Source: Anabaena sp. UHCC 0204 (GTDB taxonomy: Bacteria > Cyanobacteriota > Cyanobacteriia > Cyanobacteriales > Nostocaceae). From it: a stretch of DNA of 64,000 nucleotides. The notes below the pieces were generated by a model, which saw only the letters and a list, made by a program, of their open reading frames with translations, searched no databases and had not been told where the DNA came from. Positions 3,267-31,289 of the stretch are shown piece after piece (the first letter of the stretch is position 1; every line of letters begins with the position of its first letter). The translations under genes were made by a program, and so were the position numbers. The stretch is from positions 60,953 to 124,952 of the forward strand of contig NZ_VIKW01000014.1 of assembly GCF_009711975.1 (NCBI RefSeq), given 5' to 3'.

Positions 3267-3947
3267 ATGGCTGCTCCAAGTTTAGAAGTAATTTCCGCTC
3301 AATTAGAAAGTCCAAATTTGCGCGATCGCATGGTAGCTCTTGCTAGTTTGCGCCAAGTGTCTGCTGATGATGCAGTTCCTTTAATTAAAAAAGTTTTGGA
3401 TGATGAATCTCTACAACTGCGCTCCATGGCCATATTTGCTCTTGGTATTAAAAAAACGCCGGAGTGTTATTCTATCCTGGTAAAAATTCTGGAAACAGAT
3501 CCAGACTATGGTATCCGTGCTGATGCGGCTGGTGCGTTGGGATATCTTGAGGATAATCGAGCCGTTGAAGTGCTATCACGGGCTTTCTATGAAGATACAG
3601 ACTGGTTAGTTAGGTTTAGTGCTGCTGTATCTTTAGGTAATATTAAAGACCCCCGCGCCCATGATATTCTCATCCAGGCGCTAAATAGTGAAGAAATAGT
3701 CATCCAACAAGCTGCTATTTCTGCTTTGGGAGAAATCCGCGATCTCGATTCTGTCACATATATTCTGCGCTTTGCCCAATCAGAGGATTGGTTAGTACGG
3801 CAGCGTCTTGCTGAAGCTTTAGGCAATTTACCCACTCTTAAAAGTGTCTCGGCTTTAAAATATTTAGAAAAAGATAGTCATAGTAACGTTGCTGAAGCCG
3901 CAAGGATTTCTCTACAAAGACTTGAGGAAGTAAACAATCTTAGTTGA
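3267..3947 (+). CDS. nblB: HEAT-repeat protein, NblB-like phycobilisome degradation factor
   Basis: A 226-residue protein made almost wholly of HEAT/PBS-lyase-type repeats of about 30 residues, e.g. LRDRMVALASLRQVSADDAV, LQLRSMAIFALG, YGIRADAAGALGYLEDNRAV, WLVRFSAAVSLGNIKDPRA, IVIQQAAISALGEIRD and WLVRQRLAEALGNL. Length and repeat pattern fit NblB, which in cyanobacteria is needed for phycobilisome breakdown during starvation and is related to CpcE-type lyases. The next gene downstream is a bilin lyase, which fits a phycobilisome theme, but a 517-bp gap separates them, so they are not an obvious operon. Other HEAT-repeat lyase relatives would look similar, so the symbol is tentative. Confidence 0.7.
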   Translation: MAAPSLEVISAQLESPNLRDRMVALASLRQVSADDAVPLIKKVLDDESLQLRSMAIFALGIKKTPECYSILVKILETDPDYGIRADAAGALGYLEDNRAVEVLSRAFYEDTDWLVRFSAAVSLGNIKDPRAHDILIQALNSEEIVIQQAAISALGEIRDLDSVTYILRFAQSEDWLVRQRLAEALGNLPTLKSVSALKYLEKDSHSNVAEAARISLQRLEEVNNLS

Positions 3948-3977
3948 TATTAAAGTCTCTTCCTAGTTTTTAATAAA

Positions 3978-4440
3978 TTAAGAGGAATACTCAAAATTGT
4001 GATGCAGGATAACTTCGTTTGTCAGTAACCCAGCCCTAAAGGGACTGGGCTTGCAAGAGTAATCAAGTAAGCCGTACTGACCAGACCACCCTGAGTTTAC
4101 TCTCACGGTAGCCGTTATTTGAGTCATGACACCCTGTGGATGCGTAGCTAGTCCCCTGCTCTGTCGCTTGTGATTAAACAGTTCTAAGGTCACTGGAACA
4201 GTGTTGCAAGCCTAACAAGCTCTGATAACTGGTCAAAGCTAACATTACCCCAGAAATGGGAGGCACATCGCGTGCAATACATTATGCGTACAGAGTTGGA
4301 AAATTTGAATCGGTAATTGTCCCGTTGAAAGTACATCACAAAAGTACCCCGAATTTTCCGACTCCAAGGCGGTAATAAAAAAATATTCAAAGCGGTTTTA
4401 ACCGCTTGAGTCGCTTCCCTCTCAGCACTAAAGTAACTGA
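3978..4440 (-). mobile_element. Possible decayed mobile element or structured noncoding region
   Basis: The region between the NblB-like and CpcS genes has less AT-rich composition than neighbouring spacers and two hairpins: AACCCAGCCCTAAAGGGACTGGG near 4026-4049 and the near-perfect palindrome AAGCGGTTTTAACCGCTT at 4390-4407. Minus-strand frames give two consecutive short ORFs (4390-4190 and 4193-3978) that match no domain I know. The GC-rich hairpin followed by CTTGCAAG resembles ends and guide-RNA regions of IS200/IS605-type TnpB elements in cyanobacteria, but no tnpB frame is present. It could be a remnant or an unrelated structured RNA. Confidence 0.25.
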
Positions 4441-4464
4441 GTTTCCCACTTACCGCGAGGTCTT

Positions 4465-5031
4465 ATGAACATTGAGGAATTTTTTGAGTTAAGTGCTGGT
4501 AAATGGTTTTCCCATCGTACTAGCCACCATTTGGCGTTCAAGCAGTCTGAAGACGGCAAATCAGACATTGTGATTGAGACATTAGCCGCTGATCATCCAG
4601 AAGTAATTAAACTGTGTGAACAGTATGAAATTGAACCTAGTGCTGCTTCTTGTGGTGCAAGAGTTACCTGGAACGGCACAATGGAATGGGATGAGGAAAA
4701 ACATGAAGGTTCTACGGTTTTAGCTACCATTCCCGATCGCAATAACCCAGATGAAGGTAGATTACTGAGAGAAATGGGTTACGCCGAAAAAGCACCCGTA
4801 GCTGGCAGCTATAAAATAGGCAGTGATGGCGCTTTAACTCTCACCACCGAGTATGAAACCATGTGGTCAGAAGAAAGGTTATGGTTTGCTAGTCCCAATT
4901 TGCGGATGCGAGTAAGTGTTCTCAAACGGTTTGGTGGCTTTAGTATGGCTTCCTTTACTTCCGAAATCCGCATGGGTAGTACCGCTGCATCTACAAAAGC
5001 TACTGAAGCAGCTAATTCTGCTACCAGTTAG
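4465..5031 (+). CDS. cpcS: Phycobiliprotein lyase, CpcS/CpeS family
   Basis: A 188-residue protein with the lipocalin-like CpcS/CpeS fold: [25 protein letters not shown] at the N-terminus, then [25 protein letters not shown], the [13 protein letters not shown] segment and a C-terminal strand [26 protein letters not shown]. Family members attach phycocyanobilin to Cys82-type sites of phycocyanin beta, allophycocyanin and related subunits. The sequence fits the broad-specificity group of heterocystous cyanobacteria best. The start ATG at 4465 follows GCGAGGT, a usable ribosome binding site. A MITE-like element and a heptamer array follow the stop. Subfamily assignment (cpcS versus cpeS) is uncertain. 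Confidence 0.88.
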
Positions 5032-5064
5032 GGAAGCAACGGGACAGGGGAAAATTACACAAAT

Positions 5065-5155
5065 AGGACTTACGCAAAATATCTCTGAAACCTTCTTTTC
5101 TTCGTGTTCTTCGTTCCTTCGTGGTTCGTTTCTTCGTGACTTGTGCGTAAGTCCT
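5065..5155. mobile_element. MITE-like element with AGGACTTACGCA terminal inverted repeats
   Basis: The ends are AGGACTTACGCA (5065-5076) and TGCGTAAGTCCT (5144-5155), a perfect 12-bp inverted repeat around a 67-bp interior rich in TTCGTG/TTCTTCG motifs. There is no coding potential. Short elements with this terminal sequence are frequent in cyanobacterial genomes in my experience. It lies directly downstream of the lyase gene. Confidence 0.65.
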
Positions 5156-5163
5156 GACAAAAA

Positions 5164-5191
5164 GGGAACAGGGAACAGGGAACAGGGAACA
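5164..5191. repeat. Tandem heptamer GGGAACA, 4 units
   Basis: Four perfect GGGAACA units in tandem, an STRR-type array. It lies between the MITE-like element and the ureC leader. Confidence 0.9.
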
Positions 5192-5324
5192 GATAAGAAA
5201 CACTCATTTGCACCAGTTTAAAGCTCAGTCAAAAAAAGATGTTTTTAAACATGAGTTTTTTCTGTTCCCTATTGCCCGTTCCTTATTCTCTCTGAACAGG
5301 TTCTTAATTTATGAAAGGGTGGTT

Positions 5325-25685: not shown

Positions 25686-25795
25686 GTAATTGGTGACTTG
25701 CCCTGAGCGTAGCCGAAGGGTTGGTAATTGGTAATGCGGGCATTTGTCCCGTCTTCCTAGCATTAATTCATCAACTACTTTATCAACCAACATTT

Positions 25796-25827
25796 AAAAA
25801 CCCCCAAGTAATATCCCTACTTGGGGG
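25796..25827 (-). terminator. Rho-independent terminator of the tRNA-like RNA
   Basis: On the minus strand, CCCCCAAGTA (25827-25818), a 7-nt loop and TACTTGGGGG (25810-25801) form a perfect 10-bp stem followed immediately by TTTTT (25800-25796). The T-run is present only in the minus direction, so it ends the transcript that comes from the DUF7873-like gene and the tRNA-like structures, not the S1 gene on the plus strand. Confidence 0.9.
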
Positions 25828-25916
25828 TGGTAACTGAAAGTTATTAAGCTTCAGTGTTGTGTTTCACTACTTCTACCTAATTAATTTCCGGTTTCTGTAA
25901 ATTTATTCTTTAGGTC

Positions 25917-25988
25917 GTGGTGTTTTACCGCTAAACTATCGGCGAATGAATTAAAAATCACCGAACGGGATTTGAACCCGTGTCCCAC
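25917..25988 (-). ncRNA. Permuted tRNA-like domain 2
   Basis: Order on the minus strand: GTGG (25988-25985), short variable loop GAC, T-stem ACGGG-loop TTCAAAT-CCCGT, acceptor TCGGTGA (25964-25958), T73, 11-nt linker (25956-25946), acceptor TCGCCGA (25945-25939), TA, D-arm GTTT-AGCGGTA-AAAC (25936-25922), A26, CCAC (25920-25917). Acceptor pairs 7/7 with one G-T, T-stem 5/5, D-stem 4/4, anticodon stem only 4 bp. The linker has the same length as in domain 1. Confidence 0.78.
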
Positions 25989-26080
25989 TGACATTAATCT
26001 ACAGAGGTTGATGTAGGAGGTGAATTTTTAAATTTAGCTTGGAGCAATAGGTTAAATCTAAATTTGATACTAACTGTGTC

Positions 26081-26157
26081 AGGAGTGCCTTTACCATTTG
26101 GCTATCCCCCGGTTTAAATAAGTCGAGGGAGTAGGAATCGAACCTACAAATTCTCCT
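26081..26157 (-). ncRNA. Permuted tRNA-like domain 1
   Basis: Order on the minus strand: AGGAG (26157-26153, 3' strand of the anticodon stem), variable loop AATTT, T-stem GTAGG-loop TTCGATT-CCTAC, acceptor TCCCTCG, A73 (26123), 11-nt linker (26122-26112), acceptor CGGGGGA (26111-26105), TA, D-arm GCC-AAATGGTAAA-GGC (26102-26087), A26, CTCCT (26085-26081). Acceptor pairing is 7/7 (one G-T), T-stem 5/5, anticodon stem 5/5, with invariant D-loop GG and T-loop TTC. No CCA is encoded. Confidence 0.8.
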
Positions 26158-26194
26158 ATAGACACTGAAACTAAATTTGTACTCCAAATCTATT

Positions 26195-26941
26195 CTACCG
26201 GAAATTTGATGGTGCAAACAAATAACCAAAAATTGATCTTGCAACTTGGTTTTGTTGGTTGACTTCTAAACTGTTTGCTTGTTCTCTGGCAAAAATTACT
26301 TCTTGCATCAGTCTGTCTACTCTTCGCAGCAACTCATTTTGTCTAGCTTGAGAAATTGCTCCAGAAAACTTCACTGTTCGCCAATTTCCTTCAGGTATAT
26401 CTTCTGATGACTCTTTCACCTGTGCAGGATGTTCTTTTGTGGCTTCATACAGTACCACAGGTTTAACTATTCTCTTAGTTTTGGTGGTTAATTTTGGTTC
26501 AGTTGCAAAGCATTCTTGCTGCTGATCATAAACCCAAAATTCACTATTATCTAAAACTGGTAATGTGGTAACAAAGGTTTTGATATCAAGTAATTGCTTT
26601 TCTAAAAAGAGTAGATAGGAAACAGGAACTTGAGTTAAAATAGTTGTACCATCAACTACTATATCTGCTTTTGCTTGAGCGTTAGCCCAATCTTGGGTAG
26701 CACATAAATTAAATAATTCCGCACAAGCTTGTTCATATTGACTCAGCAAGTCTTCTGCTTTTATTTGTAATGTCTGATTTTCTGGAGGATAAACATAGCC
26801 ATCTTCAGCTACGGGACTAAATGTGCGGGAAATACCCTGAAACATGGGTCCTTTTTGAATTAGTTGATAAATAGTAGTTTTAGCTTTTGTGGCGTTAGAT
26901 TTCACAGTCTGTAAAACTGCTATGACTTGATTTAGTTTCAA
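26195..26941 (-). CDS. DUF7873-like protein, upstream of and overlapping the tRNA-like RNA
   Basis: A 248-residue soluble protein of unknown function. Segments KLNQVIAVLQTVKS, GISRTFSPVAEDG, ADIVVDGTTILTQVPVSYLLFLEKQLLDIKTF, LPVLDNSEFWVYD, GNWRTVKFSGAISQARQNELLRRVDRL and VIFAREQANSLEV resemble, from memory, a family widespread in actinobacteria and phages that I associate with DUF7873. It has no signal peptide or membrane helix; the C-terminal third is helical and charged. Its last codons form one arm of the outer helix of the downstream RNA, so mRNA and RNA are contiguous. A patchy family next to a tRNA mimic suggests a horizontally spread RNA-related module; the function is unknown. Confidence 0.6.
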   Translation of the reverse strand: MKLNQVIAVLQTVKSNATKAKTTIYQLIQKGPMFQGISRTFSPVAEDGYVYPPENQTLQIKAEDLLSQYEQACAELFNLCATQDWANAQAKADIVVDGTTILTQVPVSYLLFLEKQLLDIKTFVTTLPVLDNSEFWVYDQQQECFATEPKLTTKTKRIVKPVVLYEATKEHPAQVKESSEDIPEGNWRTVKFSGAISQARQNELLRRVDRLMQEVIFAREQANSLEVNQQNQVARSIFGYLFAPSNFR

Positions 26942-29587: not shown

Positions 29588-31289
29588 GTTTCAATCCCTA
29601 ATAGGGATTAGTGAAAATTGCAATATCTTTTGAGTAAATATCTGACGATTTGGCTGTAGCGGTTGTTTCAATCCCTAATAGGGATTAGTGAAAATTGCAA
29701 TTAATTTGAATAATTTAATGGAAATTGCGATCGCACGTTTCAATCCCTAATAGGGATTAGTGAAAATTGCAATGCACCGATTTTGGTGTTTGGAGTGGTC
29801 CGAATTTGAGTTTCAATCCCTAATAGGGATTAGTGAAAATTGCAATTCCTTTAATTCAGGAATCAACCTATCTTGAACTGTTTCAATCCCTAATAGGGAT
29901 TAGTGAAAATTGCAATCACCCATGAGTACATCCTAATGCAGGATTTATAACATAATGTTTCAATCCCTAATAGGGATTAGTGAAAATTGCAATTTAGTGT
30001 TACTACGGATAAATCCCAAACAAAAGAGGTTTCAATCCCTAATAGGGATTAGTGAAAATTGCAATCTCTTACGAGTATGATGATGTCCGAACTATAGCTC
30101 AGTTTCAATCCCTAATAGGGATTAGTGAAAATTGCAATAACATTTTAAAATTACTTCGCCATGAACTCATTGGTTTCAATCCCTAATAGGGATTAGTGAA
30201 AATTGCAATGCATTGTCCACCTCTTTAGCTCTTACTATTATAGTTTCAATCCCTAATAGGGATTAGTGAAAATTGCAATCTTGCTTATATAAATTCAGTA
30301 TAGTTTTATAGATTATGTTTCAATCCCTAATAGGGATTAGTGAAAATTGCAATCGTAGTTCCGCCGTCGAAATGAATCCCAAAATGTTTCAATCCCTAAT
30401 AGGGATTAGTGAAAATTGCAATTCTGTTGATATGTTTGCTATTCATGAAAAATTAAGTTTCAATCCCTAATAGGGATTAGTGAAAATTGCAATTTAGGCA
30501 GACTCTACCATTAGCTGTTTTAGTAGAGTTTCAATCCCTAATAGGGATTAGTGAAAATTGCAATTCTATCCAAATAGAGGAATTAAAATCAAAAGTCAAT
30601 AATCAGTTTCAATCCCTAATAGGGATTAGTGAAAATTGCAATTATTTTTTATGATGGCACTAAACTTATAGCCACAGTTTCAATCCCTAATAGGGATTAG
30701 TGAAAATTGCAATCTGTTTCCCAGCCTCCCCGACCTCTGGGAGGAAGGTTTCAATCCCTAATAGGGATTAGTGAAAATTGCAATATTATAGTCAGTCTTG
30801 GTGTGAGCCTTAGCGGAAGTTTCAATCCCTAATAGGGATTAGTGAAAATTGCAATAACTAAATGTAGATATCAAGCCTCATGTATTGAAAGTTTCAATCC
30901 CTAATAGGGATTAGTGAAAATTGCAATACCAAAGTTTGCGTCGAAAACCTACCCCAAGTTGTTTCAATCCCTAATAGGGATTAGTGAAAATTGCAATTTA
31001 GCTAGTGTGAGATAGTAAATAAGTCAAGGAAGTTTCAATCCCTAATAGGGATTAGTGAAAATTGCAATTATTCAAGCATTAACCAATCGAAAGCATGAGA
31101 TTACACTAGTTTCAATCCCTAATAGGGATTAGTGAAAATTGCAATACCCTTGACCATGCCAGTCACATTTTCAAACACAAAGTTTCAATCCCTAATAGGG
31201 ATTAGTGAAAATTGCAATTCAATTAAATCTGATAGAAGCCCCTCAAATGTCTGTTTCAATCCCTAATAGGGATTAGTGAAAATTGCAAT
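29588..31289 (-). CRISPR. CRISPR array, 24 repeats of 37 bp, no adjacent cas genes
   Basis: Twenty-four essentially identical 37-bp repeats (plus strand beginning GTTTCAATCCC and ending AAAATTGCAAT; internal palindrome AATCCCTAATAGGGATT) separated by 23 spacers of about 33-41 bp. The repeat ends in ATTGAAAC on the minus strand, the usual 8-nt handle of many cyanobacterial type I-D/III repeats, so transcription is probably from right to left with the leader at 31290-31690. First and last repeats are intact. No cas gene lies within about 25 kb on the left or 32 kb on the right, so processing enzymes must be encoded elsewhere. Confidence 0.98.

Follow-up and report, generated by a model that had tools for sequence, protein, structure and literature searches.

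The 64-kb stretch of Anabaena DNA analysed here (the window) carries on its minus strand a gene for a DUF7873 protein and, starting 8 nt 3' of the stop codon of that gene, a predicted structured RNA with two permuted tRNA-like domains (Table 1). In both domains the parts follow one another in the order T arm, acceptor 3' strand, linker, acceptor 5' strand, D arm. Two domains of this kind, with the T half before the D half on the minus strand, had been claimed in a sequence-only reading of the window, and both were located by a descriptor scan of the two strands, which gave each a score of 40 and reached 30 nowhere else in the 64 kb; no score of 36 or more was obtained in 40 Markov-resampled copies of the window. 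The pairing given for domain 1 was correct, with 7/7 pairs in the acceptor stem (one of them G-U) and 5/5 in the anticodon stem, while its acceptor linker, put at 11 nt, has 12 nt when the discriminator is included. Folding of positions 26195-25795 as a single sequence gave a z score of -4.15 against dinucleotide shuffles, with both acceptor stems present. An outer stem AAATTTCCGGT/ACCGGAAATT around both domains was considered and rejected, being unsupported in relatives and having as its 5' part the coding end of DUF7873. Elsewhere the window holds a HEARO RNA (RF02033; 4021-4248, plus strand, 132.7 bits), a match to the 5' ureB sRNA family (RF02514; 5479-5766, minus strand, 106.7 bits) and, fairly near the RNA unit, a CRISPR array with 24 CRISPR-DR5 repeats at threshold (29588-31289, minus strand).

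Table 1. Parts of the DUF7873-RNA unit in the 64-kb window, with the basis of each assignment
Feature	Position	Strand	Basis or remark
DUF7873 (PF25283) protein gene, 248 aa, directly 5' of the RNA	26195..26941	-	Pfam E 3.1e-99, 332 bits; stop codon 26197-26195
Predicted structured RNA, whole (P1 to terminator end)	25795..26186	-	about 390 nt; consensus fold and covariation
P1 5' strand TGGAGTA, around domain 1	26180..26186	-	consensus helix 1; 96.9% of cells paired
P1 3' strand TGCTCCA	26040..26046	-	consensus helix 1
Domain 1 anticodon-stem extension, 5' strand GTGTC	26161..26165	-	sequence and single-sequence fold; absent from RNAalifold consensus
Domain 1 anticodon-stem extension, 3' strand GACAC	26076..26080	-	sequence and single-sequence fold; absent from RNAalifold consensus
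Permuted tRNA-like domain 1, 3-bp D stem type	26081..26157	-	descriptor scan, strand pairing, consensus fold
Domain 1 anticodon-stem 3' strand AGGAG	26157-26153	-	
Domain 1 variable region AATTT	26152-26148	-	
Domain 1 T arm GTAGG-TTCGATT-CCTAC	26147-26131	-	
Domain 1 acceptor 3' strand TCCCTCG	26124..26130	-	consensus helix 3; 100% paired, two-sided change in 6/7 pairs
Domain 1 acceptor linker ACTTATTTAAAC	26112..26123	-	sequence; family linker pattern; 12 nt including discriminator
Domain 1 acceptor 5' strand CGGGGGA	26105..26111	-	consensus helix 3; TA next, before D arm
Domain 1 D arm GCC-AAATGGTAAA-GGC	26102-26087	-	A at 26086 next
Domain 1 anticodon-stem 5' strand CTCCT	26085-26081	-	
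Permuted tRNA-like domain 2, 4-bp D stem type GTTT/AAAC	25916..25989	-	descriptor scan, strand pairing, consensus fold
Domain 2 acceptor 3' strand TCGGTGA	25958..25964	-	consensus helix 9; two-sided change in 7/7 pairs
Domain 2 acceptor 5' strand TCGCCGA	25939..25945	-	consensus helix 9
Domain 2 basal helix, 5' strand CTGTAGATTAA	25994..26004	-	consensus helix 6; two-sided change in 9/11 pairs
Domain 2 basal helix, 3' strand	25895..25906	-	consensus helix 6
Terminator-like hairpin	25800..25828	-	family loop often like NGGNYAN

A DUF7873 match was present in 12 of 100 genomes, the Anabaena genome itself included, and nine of the genes were near full length. At least one permuted domain lay directly downstream of each of these nine, and two were found by the descriptor at six. 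The best 80 of 502 confirmed relatives in a scan of named genomes came from cyanobacteria, Streptomyces and other actinobacteria, Chloroflexi, a planctomycete and a deltaproteobacterium; further loci were contributed by viral contigs (71), phage records (73, of which 50 cover at least 80% of the protein) and plasmids (4). The closest kin of the window protein among the matches listed, 84-90% identical, are in Cylindrospermum, Nostoc, Scytonematopsis and Trichormus. Across 164 DUF7873 loci (L033-L196, with L039 the window itself and with near-duplicates such as L038/L049, L037/L050 and L126/L127), the descriptor at a score of at least 34 found one or more domains on the DUF7873 strand within 1.1 kb downstream in 142, two of them in 76 and one in 66, and gave two hits elsewhere. 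It found no domain in 22 loci, six of which are gene fragments or cut ends (L042-L045, L058, L194); the other 16 are L052, L073, L080, L100, L123, L129, L130, L132, L133, L137, L138, L173, L175, L180, L192 and L195, among them the deltaproteobacterial L080 and the cyanobacterial L052 and L100. No RNA was seen downstream of 4723 in L052, and domain 1 is apparently missing downstream of 4735 in L100. Nine of the 73 phage records were examined at a descriptor score of at least 33: Pseudanabaena phage Pam2, Rhodococcus phage NiceHouse, Gordonia phages Phendrix and Ronaldo, Arthrobacter phage Mimi, two Rhizobium phages, one Klebsiella phage and one Vibrio phage. Each of the nine carries at least one domain, with two in three of them, and several of the units sit amid annotated tRNA genes. 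The permuted-domain RNA is thus not confined to one cyanobacterium and occurs in other bacteria and in phages.

A conserved neighbour gene may stand beside the unit. As a third member it was sought by clustering open frames of at least 80 codons from 151 loci, and was rejected: beyond the three largest clusters, none held more than 11 loci. DUF7873 itself was recovered in just 82 of the 151, because longer spurious frames displaced it in GC-rich loci, and the next two clusters, of 54 and 25 loci, overlap the DUF7873 position. What we take to be an RtcB-like RNA ligase is encoded near the unit in four viral contigs (L189, 6887-8026, and three others).

To measure acceptor pairing across the family, domains were anchored on the T arm and the D arm alone, so that their choice was independent of the pairing under test. 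In 157 loci with sufficient downstream sequence (the six gene fragments or cut ends excluded), 226 anchor pairs were obtained, with two in 81 loci, three in 3, one in 55 and none in 18. Taken in permuted order, the acceptor strands form 7/7 pairs in 197 of the 226 domains, six in 12 and fewer in 17; when distinct strand combinations are counted once, 111 of 136 have all seven, and random re-pairing of the strands gives 7/7 in 3.1%. Each of the seven positions shows all four Watson-Crick pairs. The conventional order, in which D half 1 faces T half 2, had been read as yielding no acceptor stem, and this was borne out: a hand count gave 3/7 pairs in the window, and 7/7 pairs were found in none of 81 loci. 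At one viral locus (L131) the tRNA model did align to D half 1 paired with T half 2, the conventional order, with 29.0 bits, which equals the cut-off, and an E value of 0.055.

The remainder of the fold was examined in a MAFFT alignment of 14 cyanobacterial RNAs, from which RNAalifold, run without constraint, produced a consensus that contains the acceptor stems, T arms and D arms of both domains together with P1 around domain 1, the anticodon stem and long basal helix of domain 2, and one further helix. The domain 1 anticodon stem is absent from this consensus. Two-sided changes occur in 40 of the 60 consensus pairs. The consensus structure pairs 97.1% of cells, as against 39-47% in slid versions, a control that somewhat favours it because it was derived from the same alignment; none of 500 shuffles reached any of the observed measures, a comparison in which related sequences can exceed shuffles. 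Anticodon stems were also counted in the wider family with the variable region held at fixed length. With 5 nt, 4-5 of 5 pairs form in 51 of 122 domains of the domain 1 type (3-bp D stem), against 10.9% when shuffled; with 4 nt, the same holds in 43 of 104 domains with a 4-bp D stem, against 18.6%.

A genome of the same genus (G014) holds a 97% copy of the RNA, the sole match among 59 relatives. From the window to this copy, the domain 2 acceptor changes on both sides from G3-U70 to C3-G70, and A7-U66 becomes G7-U66. The copy (L002, G014:C86:74264-74523) lacks both the 5' part of the RNA and DUF7873, which has no match in G014, and its homology to the window begins at ATAGGAG; it is therefore probably a truncated remnant left by a deletion. 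Covariation in homologs, whose absence the sequence-only reading had named as one result that would refute it, is present both in the acceptor strands and in the consensus pairs, and the permuted tRNA shape, closed at its acceptor end, is real and under selection. Adjoining halves in the tandem tRNA arrays of some cyanobacterial genomes do mimic the permuted order (L249), which is what a reading of the domains as chance or decayed tRNA remnants would draw upon; given the covariation, the conservation across phyla and the consensus-structure statistics that refute it, such an origin is scarcely credible.

The acceptor linker was surveyed in 186 distinct domains beside DUF7873, typed by the length of the D stem and not by place (type 1, 3 bp; type 2, 4 bp). 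Linker lengths range from 4 to 91 nt with a mode of 7, and are at most 8 nt in 92 of the 186, at most 13 nt in 139 and 4-5 nt in 10. A base pattern emerges from the 176 domains with linkers of at least 6 nt, and is nearly identical in 200 domains that include a few from elsewhere. At the first base, type 1 domains (n=98) have A in 81% of cases and type 2 domains (n=78) have U or G in 95%; the second base is C in 83% and 85%, the third C or U in 85% and 91%, and the fourth A in 44% and 49% of types 1 and 2, respectively. The last three bases tend to Y-R-U before G1 (Y 90%/98%, R 82%/88%, U 49%/67%), and CCA follows the discriminator in 30/108 type 1 and 28/78 type 2 domains. To judge by these base frequencies, the linker looks like an encoded tRNA 3' end (N-C-C/U start) followed by a pre-tRNA leader. 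The two window linkers, ACTTATTTAAAC and TTTTTAATTCAT, both of 12 nt, match the family pattern in part.

Linkers that begin like NCCA and end like a pre-tRNA leader in many relatives, next to permuted halves with paired acceptor strands, are what would be expected of permuted tRNA genes, whose halves would join at the anticodon loop and whose acceptor end would then be opened to give two working tRNAs. Known permuted tRNAs are joined via a BHB motif before being opened by RNase P and tRNase Z, as described in an excerpt of PMC3978253. The shape that the sequence-only reading described, a tRNA opened at its anticodon loop and closed at its acceptor end, stands; its extension to a permuted tRNA gene does not, and we regard that origin as most improbable. 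The anticodon loop is lacking and, as had been read, no U33-anticodon loop can be built: the outer strands pair onward into helices, in the consensus for domain 2 and in the single-sequence fold for domain 1. The tRNA-splicing endonuclease PF01974 was not found in the genome, while the four archaeal genomes among 14 controls match it. Linkers no longer than 8 nt are present in 92 of the 186 domains and linkers of 4-5 nt in ten, and the acceptor stem sequences vary freely. The genome also has 39 ordinary tRNA genes (from 41 matches, with 150 of 407 candidates scored), among which Ile-GAT, Leu-TAA and Ala-TGC genes were not found. ARAGORN reported zero tRNAs in the window. G3-U70 is the alanine identity pair; it is not a family feature, pair 3 being G-U in 14 domains out of 226, although window domain 1 has it. 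The tmRNA covariance model gave no match at the gathering level in the window or in 18 loci, and only fragments of 7-15 bits at a loose threshold.

No Rfam 15 family matched the RNA at the gathering threshold in the window or in 18 loci. At a loose threshold, YrlA (RF02553) was the top match for the window, lying over domain 1 with 24.8 bits and an E value of 0.0065, and it matched at domain 2 in five of eight other loci with 27.6-35.6 bits (none in L038, L040 and L139). These scores of 24.8-35.6 bits compare with a gathering score of 69, and likely Y RNAs beside the TROVE gene of G014 score similarly low: the weak YrlA matches there, among tRNAs, have 26.4 bits (L005, 2123-2222) and 25.5 bits (2271-2388, both minus strand). 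Two further cyanobacterial loci carry single permuted domains with Y-RNA-like stems on the minus strand, near 1479-1579 in L248 and 1509-1568 in L250, with YrlA scores of 37.7 and 30.9 bits. The module order, which is that of YrlA, and these sub-threshold matches would fit a tandem Y RNA, that is, a doubled YrlA bound by Ro60 (Rsr). We consider this distinctly improbable, since a TROVE match is present in only three of the nine genomes with near-full-length DUF7873, one of them being an 83-aa open frame, and Ro60 was rejected as an obligate partner on this count. The Ro60/TROVE gene of the Anabaena genome itself is on another contig (L244, G000:C77:44000-50500; gene at 3556-5199), beside tRNA-fold RNAs of its own. 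There, the gene flanks (L244, 2600-5400) hold several such RNAs in conventional order, in which a CTTGCCT..AGGCCGA hairpin followed by GGGTTATCG takes the place of the anticodon arm. These are presumably Y RNAs, and CUUG/CCGA presumably a Ro-binding motif.

The RNA has a further regularity outside its tRNA-like domains. In 76 RNAs a 6-nt period is found in the tract before domain 1 and in the tract between the domains, with z scores of 16.4 and 14.2 at lag 6 and of 9.8 and 4.5 at lag 12, and of only 3.7 after domain 2; the control consisted of mononucleotide shuffles, and the sequences are related to each other. A protein whose binding unit spans 6 nt would fit such a period, with DUF7873 as the obvious candidate. 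In the hairpin 3' of domain 2, a 7-nt loop was seen in 65 of the 141 hairpins picked (AGGCTAC, CGGCTAC, TGGACAT, CGGATAT and AGGATAC, for example).

The AlphaFold model of DUF7873 (pLDDT 93.6, pTM 0.68) consists of long helices and a long beta hairpin (residues 150-165 and 174-189), at whose tip A167, T168, H171, P172 and A173 are near-invariant and Q174 is invariant. Fold comparison yielded no convincing match, and the composition of the window protein is not basic, with 26 K/R against 28 D/E; because of both, the proposed RNA binding by DUF7873 rests on its linkage to the RNA. The DUF7873 gene of Chamaesiphon (L057, 4001-4726) has one in-frame stop, and the D loop of the downstream domain 1 has a hairpin-like insert.

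On balance, we lean towards the view that the conserved element of about 390 nt 3' of DUF7873 is a tRNA-mimic RNA that acts with DUF7873 and is bound by tRNA-handling enzymes, rather than a pair of tRNA genes. The element would be transcribed with DUF7873 or processed from the DUF7873 3' UTR, and would end at the terminator. DUF7873 would bind the RNA, perhaps along the 6-nt-repeat tracts before domain 1 and between the domains. In each domain the T arm would stack on the closed acceptor helix, displaying an intact D-loop/T-loop elbow and a tRNA-like linker start, and could thereby recruit or hold enzymes for which elbow and acceptor end count but their sequence does not, such as RNase P, tRNase Z, the CCA-adding enzyme or, as reported for YrlA, PNPase. 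Because the acceptor stems vary freely yet stay paired, shape-reading enzymes are more plausible partners than one fixed aminoacyl-tRNA synthetase. The DUF7873-RNA particle would then act in trans, offering a pair of tRNA elbows whose acceptor ends are closed or processed, and its location amid phage tRNA genes would be in keeping with a part in the maturation, repair or decoying of tRNAs.

The same position, with the RNA so close behind the stop codon and, at each of the 142 loci where a hit lies nearby, downstream of the gene and in the same orientation, would also be expected of a cis-acting 3' UTR element that stays part of the DUF7873 mRNA and governs how stable the message is or how it is translated, for example through an RNase P cut or binding of its own product. 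This is unlikely, as the size of the RNA and its two elaborate tRNA mimics seem to go beyond the usual needs of cis control. The linker pattern and the CCA after the discriminator point in another direction, towards a multi-piece RNA. Both acceptor loops would be opened by RNase P and tRNase Z, and the three resulting pieces would stay together through base pairing, with two ends that are free and NCCA-like; processing of this kind is the presumed fate of the permuted tmRNA precursor (PMC3985003). We judge this rather unlikely in view of the ten domains with linkers of 4-5 nt, the lack of a conserved aminoacylation identity in the acceptor stem and the incomplete match of the window linkers to the pattern. 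A broader proposal, decidedly unlikely, is a two-headed RNP of three pieces, with acceptor loops opened by RNase P and tRNase Z, free NCCA ends and DUF7873 as scaffold, which would be used by bacteria and carried by phages in tRNA clusters to seize the host tRNA machinery or ribosome.

The unit combines a predicted noncoding RNA that appears not to have been catalogued with a protein family dedicated to it, and is common to phages and to bacteria of the cyanobacteria, actinobacteria and Chloroflexi. A role can now be predicted for the DUF7873 family, as can a gene in the unannotated gaps that adjoin DUF7873 in phage genomes. The presence of two tRNA mimics in a single molecule also provides a direct test of the purpose of permuted tRNA mimicry, known from YrlA, where Ro60 is absent. 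No paper describing the RNA element was found by title or abstract in the open-licence literature, nor any on DUF7873 in open-licence full text. The permuted module is already known from YrlA; its doubled form in an RNA partnered with DUF7873 seems not to have been described.

Among known systems, the circularly permuted tRNA genes of algae and archaea likewise have the 3' half before the 5' half and acceptor ends joined by a linker. Set against the account of them in the excerpt of PMC3978253, the RNA here has no anticodon and no splicing endonuclease, no joining site was seen in it by eye, and its outer strands run into helices. The permuted two-piece tmRNA, as far as the consulted part of PMC3985003 describes it, shares the acceptor-end permutation of a tRNA-like domain within a longer bacterial RNA; the RNA here has two such domains, with D stems. 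The tRNA-fold RNAs that flank Ro60 in this genome (C77, L244) resemble it in having a tRNA body with the anticodon arm replaced, and differ in their conventional order and their CTTGCCT..AGGCCGA hairpin. In build the RNA here also resembles YrlA, in which, by the Rfam consensus and an excerpt of PMC8394870, a T arm, a closed acceptor hairpin and a D arm stand on a stem that replaces the anticodon loop. According to the same excerpt, YrlA is bound by Rsr via its basal stem and by PNPase via its tRNA-like domain, is modified by DusA and TruB, and has a single domain in 90-150 nt, as against two domains in about 390 nt here. In contrast to YrlA, the present RNA is linked to DUF7873 and not to Ro60, and it has P1 and other scaffold helices as well as NCC-like linker starts.
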